Origin: Deltaproteobacteria bacterium | Lineage (GTDB): Bacteria > Desulfobacterota > Desulfomonilia > UBA1062 | Length of the DNA: 48,185 bases | Assembly (NCBI GenBank): GCA_011046135.1 | Contig: DSBG01000111.1 | Coordinates: 1 to 48,185, forward strand | Direction: 5' to 3' | The notes under the pieces: model-generated | What the model saw: the letters and a program-made list of their open reading frames with translations, nothing else | What the model was told of the DNA's origin: nothing | The model's database searches: none | Part shown: positions 25,983 through 34,719 of the stretch, piece by piece | Numbering within the stretch: position 1 is the stretch's first letter | How the letters are laid out: every line of letters begins with the position of its first letter | Program-made: the position numbers and the translations under genes

Positions 25983-26867
25983 ATGGAAGAACATCCATCA
26001 TCGTCAACTCCCTCCGAACTGTTTCTGTCGTGGATAAAAGCAGCTCAGCAGTTCTGGGGTCCCTTGACAGGGATGCAACCAGAGAACATATCAGAAACAG
26101 AAACAACCCCGAATGGTGCACGCCGTCTTCCCCAGGATGCCCTCATGACGATCCTCAAGTCATGGGGGACCCTCACGAGCGCCATGACCGAACCCTCTTC
26201 ATTGGATTCAGTGTCCCGGTCCCTTTCCCTGATGCCTGATTTCGTCATGAAGGTCTTTCAGTCAAGCCTTGGGAGCTATATGAAACTCCAGGAGCAGCTG
26301 CTCGCCAAGACACAGAATCTCGGGAAAGAGGCCGAGGCCTACCGCTTCGACAACCTTGATCAGGATTCACTGAAGGCGTGGTCTGATTTCTACAAATCAG
26401 AAATACGCCAGTATCTCAACATCCCCCAACTCGGGCTCACGCGGTTCTATCAGGAGCGCATGAACCAGACCATTGACAAGTTCAATGTATTCTCAACCTC
26501 CTTGGCTGAATTCATGCAGGTTCTCTCTCTCCCCTTTGAGAAAAGCATCAAGGTCATGCAGGACAAGATAGAAGATCTCACCCGGGAAGGGAAGCTTCCC
26601 GAGGACCCCCAGGAATATTATCGCATGTGGATCAAGATCCTTGAGGGACATTTCATGACGTTGTTCAAGTCTGAGGAGTATACCAGGGCAATGGCAGAGA
26701 CCCTGGGAAACCTCGAGGAGTTTCTCTATTCAAGGAACAGAATCATCGAGGATTCCCTCCAGTCGCTCCCGATTCCCTCAAACAAGGACATGGATGATCT
26801 CTATCAGGAACTCTACCAGATCAAAAAACGGATAAAAAACCTGGAAAAAAATACCGCTAACCCGTAA
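25983..26867 (+). CDS. phaE: Class III PHA synthase subunit PhaE
   Basis: A 294-aa partner of PhaC in class III polyhydroxyalkanoate synthase, which polymerises short-chain (R)-3-hydroxyacyl-CoA. The PhaE domain is clear in the second half: RFYQERMNQTIDKFNVF, EYYRMWIKILEGHFMTLFKSEEY, and a terminal coiled coil (MDDLYQELYQIKKRIKNLEKN). The N-terminal third is variable. Ribosome site GAGGTGA lies 3 bp before the ATG. phaC starts 21 bp after its stop. Confidence 0.93.
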   Translation: MEEHPSSSTPSELFLSWIKAAQQFWGPLTGMQPENISETETTPNGARRLPQDALMTILKSWGTLTSAMTEPSSLDSVSRSLSLMPDFVMKVFQSSLGSYMKLQEQLLAKTQNLGKEAEAYRFDNLDQDSLKAWSDFYKSEIRQYLNIPQLGLTRFYQERMNQTIDKFNVFSTSLAEFMQVLSLPFEKSIKVMQDKIEDLTREGKLPEDPQEYYRMWIKILEGHFMTLFKSEEYTRAMAETLGNLEEFLYSRNRIIEDSLQSLPIPSNKDMDDLYQELYQIKKRIKNLEKNTANP

Positions 26868-26888
26868 TCGTTGCAGGGAGGAGTCCGC

Positions 26889-28103
26889 ATGGAGAAACCG
26901 AAAATCCCCGTCGATACTATCCTTCGTCACCTGGCTCAGGATGCCGACAGGGTGCAGGAACGCGCACAGAAGGCCTCCGACATCCTGCTGAGTCCCCTGA
27001 GCACCGAGATAGCAAGCACCCCCTATGAGATCGTGTACCAGGAAGACCGGGTGAAACTGAAGCACTACCTCCCGGTGAGGGAGCCGTCAAAAGACATTAC
27101 AAGGCCGCTCTTGGTCGTGTATGCCCTCATCAACCGCGAGACCATGCTGGATCTGCAACCGGAACGGTCGGTTGTGAAGAACTTCCTGGAAGCGGGGATC
27201 GACCTCTACATGATCGACTGGGGATACCCCTCCAGGAAAGACAAGTTTCTCACCATCGATGACCACGTCAACGGGTACATGGACAACATCGTGGAGTACA
27301 TACGCAGCAAGAACAAGGTGGACAAGATCAACCTCATGGGCATCTGCATGGGGGGAACCTTCTGTGTGATCTATTCAGCCCTGCACCCGGAGAAGGTGAA
27401 AAACCTGGTGACCACGGTGTGCCCGACAAACTTCGATACAGAAGAAGGCTTACTCCACATCTGGATGAAAGATGTCGACGTCGACCGGATGATCGATGCC
27501 TTCGGAAACATGCCGGGGGACCTCATGAATTTCGGGTTCCTGCTGCTGAACCCCGCCCGGTTGATGATCGACAAGTACGTGGGATTTTTTGAGAACATGG
27601 ACAATAAGTCATTCGTGGAAAATTTCATACGCATGGAGAAGTGGATCTTCGACAGCCCCGATGTCCCCGGAGAAACCTTCAGGCAATTCGTGAAAGACTG
27701 CTACCAGAAAAACCTCCTGATCCAGAGCAAACTGATGGTAGGCGGAAAACGGGTTGATCTGAAAAAACTCACCATGCCGCTGCTCAACATCTACGGACAG
27801 TACGATCACCTGGTTCCTCCTGGAGCAGCCAACAAGATTACAGGCAAGGTGGGAAGCAAGGATACCGAGGATGTCTGTCTCGACACGGGGCATATCGGTA
27901 TCTATGTCAGCTCAAAGACTCAGCGGGAATTCACGCCGAAAATTATTCAGTGGCTTGCGCACAGGGATGCCGATACCAGGGGCTCTCCCGAGAAGAAGGG
28001 CACCAGACCAAAGAAAGCCGCATCAGAGTCGAAGAAAGACGATATGCAGTGGAACAAAAGGATCGCTCGATTAAAGGAGAGGAGTCATGCCCGAGAAAAG
28101 TGA
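26889..28103 (+). CDS. phaC: Class III PHA synthase subunit PhaC
   Basis: A 404-aa alpha/beta-hydrolase-fold polymerase. The nucleophile Cys153 sits in GICMGG, the lipase-box variant of PHA synthases; the other triad members are the Asp of YGQYDHLVPP and the His of DTGHIGIYVS. IDWGYPSRKDKF is typical of class III. The last 45 residues (after WLAHRDAD) form a lysine/arginine-rich tail longer than usual for the family. The start at 26889 follows GGGAGGAG. The tail overlaps the GAF gene by 17 bp. Confidence 0.95.
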   Translation: MEKPKIPVDTILRHLAQDADRVQERAQKASDILLSPLSTEIASTPYEIVYQEDRVKLKHYLPVREPSKDITRPLLVVYALINRETMLDLQPERSVVKNFLEAGIDLYMIDWGYPSRKDKFLTIDDHVNGYMDNIVEYIRSKNKVDKINLMGICMGGTFCVIYSALHPEKVKNLVTTVCPTNFDTEEGLLHIWMKDVDVDRMIDAFGNMPGDLMNFGFLLLNPARLMIDKYVGFFENMDNKSFVENFIRMEKWIFDSPDVPGETFRQFVKDCYQKNLLIQSKLMVGGKRVDLKKLTMPLLNIYGQYDHLVPPGAANKITGKVGSKDTEDVCLDTGHIGIYVSSKTQREFTPKIIQWLAHRDADTRGSPEKKGTRPKKAASESKKDDMQWNKRIARLKERSHAREK

Positions 28104-29139
28104 GTTCTTTAACACATTTTGCAAGGTCAGCAGGGCACTGGGAACCACGGTGGACAGGCAGGAGCTGCTGAATCTCATTGTCAGCAGCGCCATCGAGACC
28201 ATGGAAGGCAAGGCCGCGTGCCTGTTCCTGGAAGATGTTGACAGGAAAACCGGAATGATGATCGCTCAGGCACAGAAGGGGCTCTCCAAGAGCTACCTCC
28301 ATGAAGAGCCTCGAGAGGCGAAACGCGCCGCAGAAGAGATCATGAAGAAAGGCTATATTGCCATTCATGATGCCACCAAGGATTCTCGTGTCCAGTACCA
28401 CGAGATGAAAAAGAAAGCGGGGATCGCCTCCATCCTCATCGTTCCGGTCATGGTCATGGATCGGGTAATCGGTGTCCTCGCACTGTATACGGCACAACCG
28501 AGGATCTTCACCGACGAAGAGATCGAATTTCTCCGAGCTCTGGCAGAACAGGGAGGAATGGCCATCGAGCGGGCACGGCTCATCGCTCAGATCAGGAACA
28601 ACACCAAACTCTTTCACGATCTCTCCGTGGGGATGAACTCAAGCCTCGATGTGAAAAAGATCATGGAGACCATGTCTGTGGATCTCGCACAGGCCTTTGG
28701 TGTCAAGGCCGTTTCTGTTCGTCTCCTCGACAATGAGAAAAAGATCCTCAAGCTCGTTGCCAGTTATGGGCTGAGCGAGAACTATCTGAAAAAGGGTCCA
28801 ATTTCTGCAGAGAAGAGCATAGCAGAGGCATTGAAGGGTAACCCTATTGTGGTGAAGAATGCAGCAGATGATGCAGGGGTCCAGTATAAAGATGAAAAGA
28901 AAGAGGAGGGAATCGTATCCATCCTGTGTGTCCCCATCAAGGCAAAAGAAGAGGTGATCGGTGTTCTCAGGCTCTACAGCGGGGTCCCCAGAGAATTCAC
29001 CGAAGATGAGATCCTGCTTGCAAGCGCCATTGCTCACCAGGGAGGACTCGCAATACAGAATGCATCCCTGTACCTGATGCTGCAGGAGGACATGAAGTGT
29101 CTCAAGGAGGATATCTGGAGCCATCGATCCTGGTTCTGA
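28087..29139 (+). CDS. Tandem GAF-domain protein in the PHA operon
   Basis: A 350-aa cytoplasmic protein of two GAF domains (about residues 10-165 and 185-340) with no recognisable output domain. Each has the repeated core pattern: AxxxxxxxDxxxQYxxExKxxGIxSILxVP followed by a VIGVLxLY strand and FTxDEIxFLxxxAxQGGxAI. GAF domains bind small ligands such as cyclic nucleotides or haem; the ligand is not predictable. Ribosome site AAGGAGAGG lies within the phaC tail. Tight coupling to phaC suggests a sensor or scaffold for PHA metabolism. Confidence 0.8.
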   Translation: MPEKSEFFNTFCKVSRALGTTVDRQELLNLIVSSAIETMEGKAACLFLEDVDRKTGMMIAQAQKGLSKSYLHEEPREAKRAAEEIMKKGYIAIHDATKDSRVQYHEMKKKAGIASILIVPVMVMDRVIGVLALYTAQPRIFTDEEIEFLRALAEQGGMAIERARLIAQIRNNTKLFHDLSVGMNSSLDVKKIMETMSVDLAQAFGVKAVSVRLLDNEKKILKLVASYGLSENYLKKGPISAEKSIAEALKGNPIVVKNAADDAGVQYKDEKKEEGIVSILCVPIKAKEEVIGVLRLYSGVPREFTEDEILLASAIAHQGGLAIQNASLYLMLQEDMKCLKEDIWSHRSWF

Positions 29140-29214
29140 AGAGGCATCTCGTGTTTGTCAGAAAAAGGACAACGTACAACGGTATACATCAACCATAGAA
29201 ACAAGGAGGTATTC

Positions 29215-29643
29215 ATGCTGGGAAGAACCATTGCAGAACTCAAGATAGGAGACTTTGCCGAGTTTTCCAAGACTGTTACCGAGACGGATGTCTATCTCTT
29301 CGCTGGGGTCGTGGGTGATTTCAACCCCGCGCACGTGAACGAAGAGTATGCTAAAAACACCTTTTTCAAGACACGGATTGCCCATGGCATGCTTTCTGCC
29401 GGGTTTATCTCAGCGGCAATCGGCATGAAGCTCCCTGGTCCCGGAACGATCTACATGGGACAGGAACTGAAATTTCTCGCCCCTGTCCGCATCGGTGATA
29501 CCGTGACTGCCCACGTGGAGATTTCGGAAATCAATACGGAGAAAAACCGCATCAGGCTCACGACATACTGCACAAATCAGAACGGGGAGAAGGTGCTCGA
29601 CGGGTATGCCATGGTGAGTCCGCCGAAAGCACCGAAATCCTGA
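29215..29643 (+). CDS. phaJ: MaoC-like (R)-specific enoyl-CoA hydratase
   Basis: A 142-aa hot-dog-fold hydratase. The hydratase-2 motif is intact with catalytic Asp35 and His40 (VGDFNPAHVNEEYA), followed by IAHGMLSAGFIS and GTIYMGQELKFLAPVRIGD. PhaJ makes (R)-3-hydroxyacyl-CoA from beta-oxidation enoyl-CoA, supplying the adjacent synthase. The start at 29215 has a perfect AAGGAGGT at 29203-29210; an upstream GTG/TTG frame is rejected. It sits 75 bp after the GAF gene. Confidence 0.9.
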   Translation: MLGRTIAELKIGDFAEFSKTVTETDVYLFAGVVGDFNPAHVNEEYAKNTFFKTRIAHGMLSAGFISAAIGMKLPGPGTIYMGQELKFLAPVRIGDTVTAHVEISEINTEKNRIRLTTYCTNQNGEKVLDGYAMVSPPKAPKS

Positions 29644-29725: not shown

Positions 29726-30307
29726 TCACCCCTTCCTGGGTTTCTTCACCCGGGAAGTTTTCTTTCGGGGTGTAGGTGTTCTCGGCGTATTTTTCTTTGG
29801 AGCACCAGAAGAAGATTTTTCCTGTTCCCCTGGAGACTGATCCTCGACGAAGACCTCTCCGAGGCCCTTGATCATCTCCTGGAATTGCCGTGTCTGCTCG
29901 CTCATGAGGGCCTGGAATCCCGCAACGGACTCATCGAGGGAATACTTTTCCTTGAGCAGCTGCTGCAGTTCTTCAACCGTGTTCTCGAGAGAGTGGACCT
30001 GTGCTTCGAGTTCTTCCTTCTCGTTGAGGATCTTCGTGAAATCATCCTTGGTCACGAGATCCATCAGGGAGAGGAATTCCCTGAAGGATTTCTGGAAATC
30101 CAGCAGAGATGCATTCCAGAACTTGAGGTATTCCGGGGTGTTCTTCAAGAATTCGTCAACACCATAGAGTTTGGTGAAAAGATCAGTCACCTCCTGGGTC
30201 CCCGAAACATTCCCCCTGAGCCACGTCACCATGTCTTCAAACTGCTGCTGGCCTTTGGCTGCAGCGAGAAAAAAATTTCCCCAGAATTCCATGAATTCTT
30301 TATCCAC
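29726..30307 (-). CDS. PhaE/PhaM-like coiled-coil granule protein with basic tail
   Basis: A 193-aa helical protein. Residues 1-90 resemble PhaE/phasin helices (FWNASLLDFQKSFREFLSL), 90-130 form a strong coiled coil (EKEELEAQVHSLENTVEELQQLL), and the last 30 are Pro/Lys/Arg-rich (TPRTPTPRKKTSRVKKPRK). Basic C-terminal tails of this sort in PhaF and PhaM are known to bind DNA and link PHA granules to the nucleoid. It overlaps the PhaC-like gene by 8 bp, forming a second synthase/partner pair. Confidence 0.7.
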   Translation of the reverse strand: MDKEFMEFWGNFFLAAAKGQQQFEDMVTWLRGNVSGTQEVTDLFTKLYGVDEFLKNTPEYLKFWNASLLDFQKSFREFLSLMDLVTKDDFTKILNEKEELEAQVHSLENTVEELQQLLKEKYSLDESVAGFQALMSEQTRQFQEMIKGLGEVFVEDQSPGEQEKSSSGAPKKNTPRTPTPRKKTSRVKKPRKG

Positions 30308-31883
30308 GTGAACTTCCCTCCTTCATCTCCCTTTCGAGATCCAATTGGAACCGAACCGGGCCTCGAGAACCGTCCGGATACCGGTTCTGGATGGCAAATT
30401 CAGAGTCAGGGACAGACCAGCTCGTAGCAATTGCCCCATGTCCCTTGGGAAACACCGTGACCTCCGCATCGACATAGTCTAGAGGGGCCAGGGCAGATTC
30501 CTTGTCCACCAGATCATCACTGTTTGCATAGCAGATCAGAAACTTGATCCCCTTTTCCGTGAGGTCCCTGAAATTGAGCTTCCTTCCAAACAGCGTGACG
30601 GGAATGGTCCCGTCCTGTGTTACCGGGATCGTGTAGGAATCAAAACTCATCTTGGTGATGGCCACAGGGATGTCCTTGCGGTCATAGATGAGCCAGTGGT
30701 TCATGGCTGCAGCCGTCGTGGTGATCTTCACGTCTCTTCCATTCGAACCGTCGAAGAGCATGAGGTCCCGATAGAGGGTGTAGAGCGGGGCTTCCTTCTC
30801 CATGCTCTTGAGCTTGTACACCCAGCTCATCACCTTGCCGTCCACCACCTTGTTTCCACTGGGGAGATCCTTTTCCGCATACCCGAGATCCCTGAACCGA
30901 GGAGGAAGGTGCTCCATGTATTCAACGAGGGCCTTGGAGCGGGTTCCATCCATGGGTGCAACACAGGTGATCAGAGCATCCACAAGGCCGTCGAGCTCCC
31001 CGGAGAGAATATTGAGGACTGCAATGAAACCACCCTGGCAAAATCCGTTCAGCGTGACCTGAGCACCGTGACGTTTCTTCAGGATTTCACAGAATAATTT
31101 TGTATCCAGTGCATCGTCTTCACCGGTCATAGTCTGAACCGCCGGTGTTGTGTCGATATCCTTCAAAATCCGTATGTAGGTGGGAACCCCCTGGTTTGCG
31201 AATGCATGGACATAGCTCTTTCCCTCGTTGGGGAGAAAAGCCAGAATATTGGCCCCCAGAACATAGGGATGGATGATCATCACAGGTTTCCCTTTCTCCC
31301 TGACCTTCACCTTCCTGTTCGGGAGCACCTGATAGAGCAGGAACCGCTCCGTCTCACCAGCCTTCACATACCCATCACGCTCAAAGTGGAACCCGAATTC
31401 AGAACCGATGTCATCGATCGCCTTGGGATACTCGTATACGACCTTTTCCAGGAGACGGGCCTGCCTGGAGACAAAGGCTTCGATGTTTTCTCCTTCACGT
31501 TCGAACATGGTATTCAGCCATGCGGAAAACGCCCTCGATATCTCTTCAAGATGAAAATCGTGCATGATTCGTACAGTACTCCTCATCCCCTTGTTGGCAA
31601 CCTGGATGTTGAACTGGAGGAGTTCCAGATAGTCCCGGATATTGTCATGCGGGGTGTTCCGGAGGAGCTTTTCCCGCTCCGTGTTTGTGAAAGAATTCAG
31701 GGCGATCCAGAAGGGAGTCATGAATTCGTTGATGTACTTGAAGATGCCGTTCCAGTAAATCTCGATGGCCGTTGTCTTCTCACGGGTTGCATTGGTAATG
31801 GCCATTGCCGTATCCAAGGCTTGCTCAAGTCCTTTGGCCAAGGACCCGTAATAGTCAAACGAAACATCTATGAGTTCTTTCAT
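30300..31883 (-). CDS. Divergent PHA-synthase-like alpha/beta hydrolase with helical N-terminus
   Basis: A 527-aa protein. Residues 1-150 are helical and phasin-like. From about 165 comes a hydrolase fold with the PhaC-type nucleophile Cys282 in GFCQGG, an acid near Asp456 (YANSDDLVD) and a histidine near 482 (FPKGHGAIAT). The Cys in the lipase box points to acyl-thioester chemistry as in PhaC rather than a serine depolymerase. It is much longer than class III PhaC. A GGAGGG abuts the ATG directly, an unusually short spacing. It follows three mini-phasin genes. Synthase, transferase or depolymerase activity remains open. Confidence 0.72.
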   Translation of the reverse strand: MKELIDVSFDYYGSLAKGLEQALDTAMAITNATREKTTAIEIYWNGIFKYINEFMTPFWIALNSFTNTEREKLLRNTPHDNIRDYLELLQFNIQVANKGMRSTVRIMHDFHLEEISRAFSAWLNTMFEREGENIEAFVSRQARLLEKVVYEYPKAIDDIGSEFGFHFERDGYVKAGETERFLLYQVLPNRKVKVREKGKPVMIIHPYVLGANILAFLPNEGKSYVHAFANQGVPTYIRILKDIDTTPAVQTMTGEDDALDTKLFCEILKKRHGAQVTLNGFCQGGFIAVLNILSGELDGLVDALITCVAPMDGTRSKALVEYMEHLPPRFRDLGYAEKDLPSGNKVVDGKVMSWVYKLKSMEKEAPLYTLYRDLMLFDGSNGRDVKITTTAAAMNHWLIYDRKDIPVAITKMSFDSYTIPVTQDGTIPVTLFGRKLNFRDLTEKGIKFLICYANSDDLVDKESALAPLDYVDAEVTVFPKGHGAIATSWSVPDSEFAIQNRYPDGSRGPVRFQLDLEREMKEGSSRG

Positions 31884-31918: not shown

Positions 31919-32197
31919 TTACTTCGTCTTTGCCTTTTCTGCGGTGGAAAAGAACTCATCGACCCGTTTAAAGTTCTCATCCACGGCCTTTCTGTAATCG
32001 TCTCTGGCCTTCTTGTAGGTTGTCATCCACTGATTCAGGACATTCTTTCCCTCTTCGGGGATCCACGTCGCCTGACCCATGAACGTGCTGAGCATCTTTT
32101 CGGTCTGATCCTGCAGCATCACCATCGCATTGAAACTGTTGACAAACGTTGTCTTGTGAAAATCTATCATCTGTTTTACGATCTGTTTCTGATCCAT
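31919..32197 (-). CDS. Mini-phasin-like protein, copy 3 of the tandem
   Basis: A 92-aa all-helical protein starting MDQKQIVKQMIDFHKTTF. It shares with the two upstream genes the pattern KQM...KTxFxxxFxxMVxLQDQxEKM, a WxPEEG turn, and KxRDDYRKAVDExxxRVDEFF. It belongs to the general type of amphipathic phasins that coat PHA granules. Ribosome site GGAGGATAAGTC precedes the ATG. Next gene downstream begins 35 bp later. Confidence 0.72.
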   Translation of the reverse strand: MDQKQIVKQMIDFHKTTFVNSFNAMVMLQDQTEKMLSTFMGQATWIPEEGKNVLNQWMTTYKKARDDYRKAVDENFKRVDEFFSTAEKAKTK

Positions 32198-32228: not shown

Positions 32229-32501
32229 TTATTTTCCACCAAACTTTTCGAAAAATTCCTCTACCTTCTGGTATCCTTCGTCAACAGAATTCTTGAAGTC
32301 TTCTCGGCCTTTCTTGAAAGAATTAACCCACTGATCGAGGGCCTTACGTCCATCTGCCGTGATCCAGGGTGCCTGTTCGAGTACTGTCTTGACCATTTTC
32401 TCTGCCTGGTCCTGCAGCATCACCATCGTTCCGAAGCTGCTGTCAAAGGTTGTTTTCTGCATACTGATCATCTGCTTAACGAATTCCTTCTGATACTCCA
32501 T
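32229..32501 (-). CDS. Mini-phasin-like protein, copy 2 of the tandem
   Basis: A 90-aa paralogue of the neighbours. MEYQKEFVKQMISMQKTTF and LQDQAEKMV align with copies 1 and 3, with WITADGRKALDQW at the central turn and VDEGYQKVEEFFEKF at the end. It lacks any signal or membrane segment. Ribosome site GAGGAAAGAG precedes the ATG. Spacings of 44 and 31 bp to its neighbours indicate one transcript. Confidence 0.72.
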   Translation of the reverse strand: MEYQKEFVKQMISMQKTTFDSSFGTMVMLQDQAEKMVKTVLEQAPWITADGRKALDQWVNSFKKGREDFKNSVDEGYQKVEEFFEKFGGK

Positions 32502-32545: not shown

Positions 32546-32815
32546 CTAGTTACGAGAGGCTTTCTCAAAAAAGTCATGCGCCTTCAGGTAACCGTCATCG
32601 ACGAGTTTTTTAAAATCCTCTCTTCCTTCTCTGCAGTTGGATAGTAGGGAATCAAGCACCTTTCTCCCTTCTTCCGGAAGCCAGCCTGTCTGATCGATGA
32701 GAGAACCCACCATCTTCTCCATCTGGTCCTGAATGACAAGGAGCATGGTGAATCCGTTGTCAAAGGATGTCTTGTGAAGATCAAGCATTTGTTTGACGAG
32801 GTTTTTCTGATCCAT
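32546..32815 (-). CDS. Mini-phasin-like protein, copy 1 (promoter-proximal)
   Basis: An 89-aa protein starting MDQKNLVKQMLDLHKTSF, with IQDQMEKMVGSLIDQ, a WLPEEGRKVLDSLL turn and FKKLVDDGYLKAHDFFEKA. The start at 32815 is chosen for its AGGAGGGTCCC ribosome site; an upstream in-frame start adds a non-homologous, polar leader lying over the promoter's 5' leader. It is first in the minus-strand PHA operon and should be the best-expressed copy. Confidence 0.72.
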   Translation of the reverse strand: MDQKNLVKQMLDLHKTSFDNGFTMLLVIQDQMEKMVGSLIDQTGWLPEEGRKVLDSLLSNCREGREDFKKLVDDGYLKAHDFFEKASRN

Positions 32816-32856: not shown

Positions 32857-32885
32857 ACAATAGTGGTTACAGCAATGGTTGTCAA
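32857..32885 (-). promoter_or_regulatory. Sigma70-type promoter of the phasin operon
   Basis: On the minus strand TTGACA (32880-32885) and TATTGT (32857-32862) are exactly 17 bp apart, about 42 bp upstream of the first phasin ATG. The spacer contains TTGC, a half-site that recurs in this intergenic region. Confidence 0.65.
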
Positions 32886-32894
32886 GGGGTAATT

Positions 32895-33047
32895 TTGCAG
32901 TGCAGCATTATAATTTGTTAGCTATTCCCTTTCAGCTCATGGGCGATATTATATAACTATCAATTTTATTTATATAAAAGAGCCTTTCGGGTTCTAGAAA
33001 GCACTGGTCATACCAGGGGCCTAGCGATTGTTGTTGCGATGTAGCAA
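32895..33047. promoter_or_regulatory. Candidate PhaR operators between the phasin operon and phaR
   Basis: Two TTGC/GCA-rich elements lie in the divergent region. TTGCAGTGCAGCA (32895-32907) contains overlapping TGCA units just upstream of the phasin -35. TTGC-N6-GCAA (33034-33047) is an inverted repeat just before phaR. PhaR proteins studied in other bacteria bind TGC/GCA-rich sites and repress phasin and their own genes. Assignment is by analogy. Confidence 0.4.
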
Positions 33048-33058
33048 TCTTGTGTGCT

Positions 33059-33595
33059 ATGGTGAAGCCCACTGTATCAGGGCAGAACCGTGAAAACACC
33101 GCAGTACGGGGAGAAGATTCCGACGTGAGAGAGAAAATTATCCTGAAAAAATATGCCAGCAGAAGGCTCTATGATACGGCGAACAGCTCATACGTCACGC
33201 TGTCACAACTGGCTGATCTGATCAAGAGCGGACATGAAGTCCAGGTGTTCGATGCCAAGACCAGGGAGGATGTGACGGCGTTCATTCTCACCCAGATCAT
33301 CCTTGAGGAAGCGAAGAACAAGCATACGCTGTTGCCTGCTCCCCTCCTCCACATCATCATCCGGTATGGGAGCTCCATCTTGCAGGAATTCTTTGAAACA
33401 CACCTCCTCCAGACTATCAACACCTACCTGGAGCTCAAAAAGACGTTTGATGAGCAGATCCGCATGTGGCTCGATGTGGGAATGAACTATTCAGAGATAA
33501 CGAAAAAAACCCTTTCGAATATTTCCCCGTTGAATCCTTTCTCCAGCCAGGAATTTGGACGAGAACACAAAGACCTGGAGAAAAAAGAGCCGTAA
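33059..33595 (+). CDS. phaR: Polyhydroxyalkanoate synthesis regulator PhaR
   Basis: About 178 aa. The PHB/PHA accumulation regulator DNA-binding domain is unmistakable: ILKKYASRRLYDTANSSYVTLSQLADLIKSGHEVQVFDAKTREDVT, followed by LTQIILEEA. The second domain (LLHIIIRYGSSILQEFFETHLLQTI) is the PHA-binding/oligomer part. In known systems PhaR represses phasin genes until it is titrated by nascent PHA. ATG 33059 has no ribosome site; GTG 33125, preceded by GGGGAG, begins closer to the conserved domain and may be the true start. Confidence 0.92.
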   Translation: MVKPTVSGQNRENTAVRGEDSDVREKIILKKYASRRLYDTANSSYVTLSQLADLIKSGHEVQVFDAKTREDVTAFILTQIILEEAKNKHTLLPAPLLHIIIRYGSSILQEFFETHLLQTINTYLELKKTFDEQIRMWLDVGMNYSEITKKTLSNISPLNPFSSQEFGREHKDLEKKEP

Positions 33596-33666: not shown

Positions 33667-34719
33667 CTAGGCAGCCTCCACCGCTTTCCGAGAACTCCCA
33701 GTGCGCGATAAGATAAAACTCAGCGCCTCGGGCCAGGAGTGCTTCAGGGAATTCCTTCCCATAAATACCGAGATGTGCCCTGCCTGGGGGATGACAACCT
33801 TGAAAATGTCCTCGTCGGCAGTGGAGATATGGTCCCGCAGGTTGAAGAGCTGTGGAACGAGGGTGATGTCATCCTTTTCTCCTGCCAGCATTGCAACGGG
33901 GCAGTCAATAACTCCGAGATCTACGGGCTTGCCCAGAACCACGAGCTCTCTCGTGATGAGCTGGTTTTTCATGAAGAGTTTTCGAACTGCCTGCAGGTAC
34001 CACTTGCCCGAGATGTTCTGGGTATATTCGTACCAAGTCTGAAATTTTTTCACGCGATTAACGAAGTCCTTGTCCCTGACATTGATCCACAGGTTTATAT
34101 AGTCGCTGCAAAACCTCTCATATGAATTCAGAATCTTCCAGCCCATGAGCATGTATTCACCAGGTATTGTCCCTCCACCCAGGGCGACCAGCGTCCGATA
34201 GAAGTTGATCGGCATCTTCTGAACCACCTCCTGGATCTTGCCTCCTCCTGCGGTGAAGTCAATGGGTGCCGCAGCGAGGATGAGGGCAGATACATCCATG
34301 GGATACAACGCAGAATAGATTGCGCAGAGCCATCCCCCCTGGCACAGCCCAACGAGAAGAGCAGGCCCGCCAACCTCGTTGACGCAGATTCTGAGCTGTC
34401 GAACCAGGTCATCGATGGATTCATCCCTGCGCAAGGGTGTGCTTGGTTTCCACTCAATGGCATAGACCGGGGACTCGGTCAGCTCCAGACATGTCTGTAC
34501 CAGGCTCTGGTCCTGATCATAATCCGCGATACTCGAGTGGTGCCCTGCCTGGGGAGGAACGATAAGAAGAGGAACGCCTGTTCGGCCATTGTCGAATTTC
34601 CTCAGGACTATCGCTTTGTCTTCATAGAGGATCGTGTTGGGAGAGAACCACTCGGGTGTTCTGCGGTAGGTTGCGGTGTTGATGAAACGGGCAATATCCA
34701 AGCAAGATGAAAGCATCAA
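33667..34719 (-). CDS. Third PhaC-like alpha/beta hydrolase
   Basis: A 350-aa protein with a PhaC-type nucleophile Cys126 in GLCQGG, an acid in LAGEKDDITLV and His in IPQAGHISVF. PLLIVPPQAGHHSSIADYD near residue 50 and YAIEWKPSTP resemble the substrate-binding strands of PHA synthases. It lacks the PhaE-type partner directly beside it. It may be a synthase paralogue, a thioesterase or an acyl-transferase; depolymerases normally use serine. It converges with phaR across 71 bp. Confidence 0.72.
   Translation of the reverse strand: MMLSSCLDIARFINTATYRRTPEWFSPNTILYEDKAIVLRKFDNGRTGVPLLIVPPQAGHHSSIADYDQDQSLVQTCLELTESPVYAIEWKPSTPLRRDESIDDLVRQLRICVNEVGGPALLVGLCQGGWLCAIYSALYPMDVSALILAAAPIDFTAGGGKIQEVVQKMPINFYRTLVALGGGTIPGEYMLMGWKILNSYERFCSDYINLWINVRDKDFVNRVKKFQTWYEYTQNISGKWYLQAVRKLFMKNQLITRELVVLGKPVDLGVIDCPVAMLAGEKDDITLVPQLFNLRDHISTADEDIFKVVIPQAGHISVFMGRNSLKHSWPEALSFILSRTGSSRKAVEAA

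Follow-up and report, generated by a model that had tools for sequence, protein, structure and literature searches.

The class of PHA synthase determines the way in which bacteria make their polyesters. The synthases (PhaC) carry a lipase-like GxCxG box with Cys, together with a Cys-Asp-His triad (PMC5509742). Here we analyzed LongC, a divergent PhaC-like protein encoded in a 48,185-nt stretch of deltaproteobacterial DNA (contig DSBG01000111.1 of assembly GCA_011046135.1; hereafter the window). Among the closest described systems, class III PhaC (TIGR01836) with its subunit PhaE has in common with LongC the alpha/beta hydrolase fold, the GxCxGG box, the order of Cys, Asp and His, an adjoining gene for a helical partner and a location in a granule locus. 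Class I synthases (TIGR01838; full-length Aeromonas caviae structures 9knj-9knl) likewise combine a helical N-domain and a catalytic domain in one chain (Z 28), and PhaZ (TIGR01849) is also an alpha/beta hydrolase-type enzyme of PHA metabolism with a Cys nucleophile. A "class V" PhaC of Janthinobacterium, proposed to lie outside the known classes (Tan et al. 2020, as cited in PMC8312272), comes from a bacterial group other than the LongC hosts and is set beside LongC by its cited description only.

The longC gene occupies positions 30300-31883 of the minus strand, starts with ATG behind an AGGAGG ribosome-binding site and encodes 527 amino acids, comprising an N-domain (residues 1-158) and a catalytic alpha/beta domain (approximately 165-520) with the triad Cys282-Asp456-His482. 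Cys282 lies in a GFCQGG box, the acid Asp456 in a DDLV motif and the base His482 in a PKGH motif, and in a profile alignment the three residues fall on the nucleophile, Asp and His of class III PhaC. Across 47 distinct family members the box reads GFCQGG in 25 and GYCQGG in 22, so that its Cys is invariant. Asp456 was taken as the conserved acid because the homolog L048 retains it and replaces Asp457, the second Asp of the motif; two members are incomplete, and their Asp and His motifs cannot be read. Along with the triad, long LongC-specific motifs (IPTYIR, QTMTGEDD and DGTRSK) are strictly conserved. Thus, the 527-aa ORF with a PhaC-type Cys282 and an Asp and a His in the expected order, as proposed in an earlier sequence-only reading of this DNA, was borne out.

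Common profile libraries hardly recognize this protein. The window LongC matches zero Pfam families, even at E = 1, and its sole NCBIfam match is TIGR01836 (class III PhaC) with 25.3 bits against a cut-off of 365.3. Among 31 LongC members, TIGR01836 is the NCBIfam model matched by most (25), five match TIGR01838 (class I; best E 0.0036), none matches PF07167 (PhaC_N), and neither TIGR01839 (class II) nor TIGR01849 (PhaZ) is matched at E 0.1. PDB sequence searches with the LongC protein or its profile found no PhaC; therefore, sensitive comparisons of profiles and structures are needed to reveal the kinship of LongC and PhaC. An AlphaFold2 model built from a 31-sequence alignment (pLDDT 87, pTM 0.85) consists of three long helices followed by an alpha/beta hydrolase domain. 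The top seven PDB entries for this model are all PhaC (Z 26.4-28.5), six of them superposing at 3.2-4.0 A across 304-317 residues; they include A. caviae PhaC 9knl as the best match (Z 28.5, 3.2 A, 312 residues), Chromobacterium 5xav (Z 28.2) and Cupriavidus necator 5t6o (Z 26.5). Gastric and lysosomal lipases rank below PhaC (Z 22-23, best 23.0), and Bacillus thuringiensis PhaZ reaches Z 18.2.

Profile-profile comparison (hhalign) gave E 6.5e-13 over 275 columns for class III PhaC, 6.1e-10 for a third PhaC-like protein of the window (positions 33667-34719) and 1.9e-6 for class I PhaC. Generic alpha/beta hydrolases came next at 0.0064, a match spanning 26 columns, and PhaZ last at 0.16. The trees are quick ones, rooted at the midpoint and built from highly divergent sequences, and cover class I, class III, PhaZ and the group of the third protein. 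In them, LongC forms a single clade with 99-100% support that lies outside all of these groups. It branches outside the joint group of class I and class III on a branch of 3.8 changes per site, and the main clades agree between trees with and without generic hydrolases. Since this branch is very long, the function of LongC cannot be read from kinship. By the features tested, LongC is a member of none of classes I, II and III: unlike class III PhaC, it has its own clade, a bit score far from the cut-off and an extra helical N-domain of about 160 residues, and unlike class I synthases, it lacks a PhaC_N match, has an N-domain that does not match theirs by profile (see below) and again falls in a separate clade. 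The earlier view that a granule operon here encodes another PhaC-like enzyme, different in structure and with Cys as its nucleophile, is therefore upheld, and the phylogenetic check that it had called for, run against class I, class III and PhaZ, places LongC in none of them.

The sequence-only reading had further described about 150 extra helical N-terminal residues "like a phasin". The helices are present in the AlphaFold2 model (residues 2-73, 78-127 and 134-158, ahead of the alpha/beta domain); the likeness to phasins did not hold up. Profile probabilities of the N-domain against the local phasins, PhaE, the coiled-coil protein CC193 encoded downstream (see below) and the class I N-domain are about 1% or less (0.6% for the class I N-domain, and 0.6% by hhalign for residues 1-167 against 70 phasin-like proteins of LongC loci), and Pfam phasin families have no match among the 31 LongC members. 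When modelled alone (pLDDT 73), the N-domain gave only matches to long-helix folds at Z ≤6, none of them a PHA protein and none significant. Phasin, PhaE and class I N-domain were thus rejected as identities of the N-domain at the sequence-profile level.

A peptide-pattern scan of 84,980 species genomes retrieved 32 further LongC loci, and 19 genomes of a 297-genome sample of the phylum contain LongC (one false match removed). A weak match in G285 was rejected as LongC, being that genome's own canonical class III PhaC. The 47 distinct sequences are nearly all from Desulfobacterota, with source labels such as Deltaproteobacteria, Syntrophaceae and Desulfobacteraceae; one Firmicutes-labelled contig (L013) is probably misbinned, judging from sequence, because its gene order is the same as, and its protein nearly the same as, that of the deltaproteobacterial L012. 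Family members are 48-74% identical to the window LongC, and mean column identity is 74% in the catalytic half vs 50% in the N-terminal part. With 32 further loci, this level of identity and a kept gene order, the gene is far from a chance occurrence. No LongC relative was found on the 72,556 plasmids searched, and the family is undescribed in the openly accessible literature on PHA synthases of Desulfobacterota, Syntrophus and Smithella and on new synthase classes.

In the window, longC belongs to a minus-strand row of genes for phasin-like proteins 3, 2 and 1, LongC and CC193. The phasin-like proteins have 89 (positions 32546-32815), 90 (32229-32501) and 92 residues (31919-32197), respectively; the first of these genes starts with an ATG behind AGGAGG, a listed TTG start at 32860 being less likely, and in the family of phasin-like protein 1 one of 23 members reaches Phasin_2 (PF09361, E 1.6e-4). 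CC193 (29726-30307) is a 193-aa candidate coiled-coil partner with a basic C-terminal tail; its gene begins with GTG and shares 8 nt with the end of longC. These same-strand ORFs agree with the operon of three mini-phasins and a coiled-coil gene described before. The further label "PhaE-like" is weakly supported for CC193 (85% probability against the PhaE profile, across 57 C-terminal coiled-coil columns), and CC193 is not clearly a PhaE. Pfam and NCBIfam matches of CC193 to kinetochore, filament and surface proteins were taken as coiled-coil noise. The gene for the PHA-responsive regulator PhaR (33050-33595, plus strand; PF07879 9.7e-27, TIGR01848 1.4e-29) diverges from the phasin-LongC operon. 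Of the 32 loci, 24 have a phasin-like gene immediately upstream of longC, 20 have CC193 immediately downstream of it, and 22 contain phaR. An arrangement that had seemed unusual in one locus is thus the rule in the LongC family, recurring in 24 of 32 loci. The genes for the class III synthase (phaEC) and a hydratase are near longC in most loci; since their orientation and side vary, the stable unit is phaR, phasin(s), longC and CC193.

Upstream of the operon, a 12-mer rich in TGC, TGCTGCACTGCA, is found at positions 32896-32907 (minus strand) and nowhere else in the window as an exact copy. Copies with up to two mismatches occur in the phaR-phasin intergenic region of 24 of 30 loci vs a shuffled mean of about 4, a comparison that includes some nearly identical loci and uses shuffles preserving base composition only. 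Because PhaR proteins bind TGC-rich sites (PMC10888616, PMC3570403), this common motif is a candidate PhaR operator, and control of the LongC operon by PhaR is likely by analogy. A sigma-70-like promoter (TTGACA-17-TATTGT, 32857-32885, minus strand) can be proposed from its consensus match, a type of match that is not enriched over shuffles in the region.

The regular class III pair is a separate unit on the plus strand, as previously proposed. It consists of phaE (25983-26867; PF09712 1.3e-20, TIGR01834 3e-20) and a canonical phaC (26871-28103; TIGR01836 437.6 bits, above the cut-off), followed by a conserved gene (28087-29139) for a protein of 350 residues, whose two halves resemble each other and, by eye only, GAF domains, a gene kept with phaEC in most LongC loci, and by a MaoC-type hydratase gene (29155-29643; PF01575 9.3e-24), which is also conserved in the locus. 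The third PhaC/PhaZ-like protein (33667-34719, minus strand; TIGR01836 130 bits, below the cut-off; PHB_depo_C 1.8e-11) is encoded between phaR and hisA. It shares with LongC a CxGG-type box (GLCQGG) and differs in having no helical N-domain, in its location outside the operon and in being nearer to class III and PhaZ. Relatives with 38% identity to it are encoded on Burkholderia plasmids, one of them annotated as "PHB de-polymerase domain protein". In L105 and L155, the LongC block adjoins class I genes and a gene resembling short-chain dehydrogenases; two tandem class I phaC genes lie directly beside the LongC-phasin block at 10156-13799 of L105, and the situation in L155 is similar. A short-chain-dehydrogenase-like gene also follows CC193 in L108 and L154.

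A PhaC-type match is present in 15 of the 19 LongC genomes vs 19 of the 278 others (Fisher 8e-13, kinship uncorrected), a co-occurrence compatible with both a synthase and a depolymerase role. More telling are genomes in which LongC stands by itself. G080 (99% complete) encodes a thiolase-like protein, PhaR, two phasins, LongC with an intact triad and CC193, and searches of this genome found neither PhaC_N nor PhaE, with no TIGR01836 score exceeding 14 bits; its LongC contig stops about 3 kb past phaR, where a gap is possible. G309 (98% complete), from the same genus, has a thiolase and the same PhaR, phasin pair, LongC (triad intact) and CC193, here well inside a 34-kb contig, with zero matches to TIGR01836. 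LongC is the only PhaC-like enzyme found in these two genomes, the evidence coming from one genus and two draft genomes. G214, a sister genome in a single contig, lacks both LongC and PhaC, and G033 (94% complete) is a weaker third case with its block on a short contig. In L102, L153 and L154, which belong to the family of G080 (one genome is labelled Desulfobacca), a thiolase-like gene lies between two genes for similar small GNAT-like proteins near phaR. The LongC-only genomes favor synthesis, because there would be little reason to keep a depolymerase where no synthase is present. On balance, we lean towards placing LongC in an undescribed lineage of PHA synthases, in which case it would act at the granule surface with a coiled-coil partner. 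Against such a role, nearly all other LongC genomes have a canonical synthase, so that a second is not obviously needed, and some LongC relatives lie outside granule operons.

The main competing reading, which we judge unlikely, makes LongC a thiol-type intracellular PHA depolymerase, bound to the granule, in which Cys282 would attack the polyester and the acyl-enzyme would be resolved by water or CoA; thiolysis to 3HB-CoA would save ATP in energy-limited anaerobes. It would account for the near confinement of LongC to genomes with a synthase, and the source genome of the window has no TIGR01849 PhaZ (two of 198 phylum genomes have one), so that another depolymerase is needed to mobilize the polymer. 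The TIGR01849 type of PhaZ is itself related to PhaC (class III PhaC vs PhaZ profile, E 1.6e-11), and thiolytic release of 3HB-CoA in recombinant E. coli needed PhaZa1 plus a phasin (reviewed in PMC7147478), a need to which the shared operon of LongC and phasins may be compared. However, the LongC and PhaZ profiles do not match, and the GxCxGG box of LongC is that of synthases, whereas the PhaZ examined has ACQP, a CQP motif in place of CxGG. The third PhaC-like protein, which clusters with TIGR01849 PhaZ in the trees, is the better depolymerase candidate in the window and wherever it is present; many LongC loci have no homolog of it within the stretch fetched. Moreover, a depolymerase makes little sense in G080 and G309.

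Improbable in our estimation is a non-polymerizing role for LongC, as an acyltransferase or an accessory protein of the granule concerned with priming, chain transfer or chain length; LongC would then use its Cys-His-Asp site on CoA thioesters and help the main synthase. Two synthase-like genes in one locus, the strict conservation of the triad and the LongC-specific motifs, and the short-chain dehydrogenase or acyl-CoA genes that adjoin longC in some loci (by eye) speak for such a role, but it leaves G080 and G309 unexplained, as there is no synthase there to help. A soluble acyl-CoA hydrolase or esterase merely located near granule genes is very improbable: stand-alone members such as the one in L031, with its acyl-CoA gene neighbors (named by eye), would fit it, but the operon with phasins and CC193 is kept in 20-24 of 32 loci, the TGC-rich motif is common to the loci and PhaC tops the structural matches.

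Under the preferred synthase reading, we infer polymerase activity for LongC, a subunit role for CC193 and control by PhaR. PhaR would leave the DNA once polymer forms, turning the LongC operon on; Cys282 would then attack the thioester of an (R)-3-hydroxyacyl-CoA, and the chain would extend by transesterification. The N-domain and CC193 may anchor and oligomerize LongC, the role of the N-domain in class I and of PhaE or PhaR in classes III and IV. LongC would work alongside phaEC in most genomes, for another substrate range, granule seeding or late-stage synthesis, and as the only synthase in one genus. More tentatively, LongC and CC193 could form an additional class of PHA synthase by architecture, combining an unrelated helical N-domain built into the PhaC chain with a dedicated coiled-coil subunit and PhaR control, and found beside class III or class I in most hosts and as the sole synthase in one Desulfobacterota genus.

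Profile screens as run here (Pfam PhaC_N and NCBIfam cut-offs) miss the LongC family entirely. If LongC polymerizes, genomes that now count as PHA-negative may belong to producers, and a new lineage of anaerobic synthases, distinguished by its N-domain, becomes open to study; if it depolymerizes, it would provide a PHA-mobilizing enzyme so far missing from syntrophic and sulfate-reducing bacteria, the majority of which lack the known PhaZ. The LongC-only genus offers a direct test of its role.

Outside granule operons lie six of the 32 LongC relatives and a second copy in G161; the stand-alone genes are those of L021, L023, L024, L025, L031, L034 and L107. Some members of the family may thus have another role, a second function being possible for the stand-alone genes. 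The longC gene of L031 adjoins acyl-CoA ligase- and dehydrogenase-like genes, as named by eye. In L020, L022, L026, L028, L102 and L153, LongC has Lys/Ala/Pro-rich C-terminal tails that recall the basic tails of some phasins.
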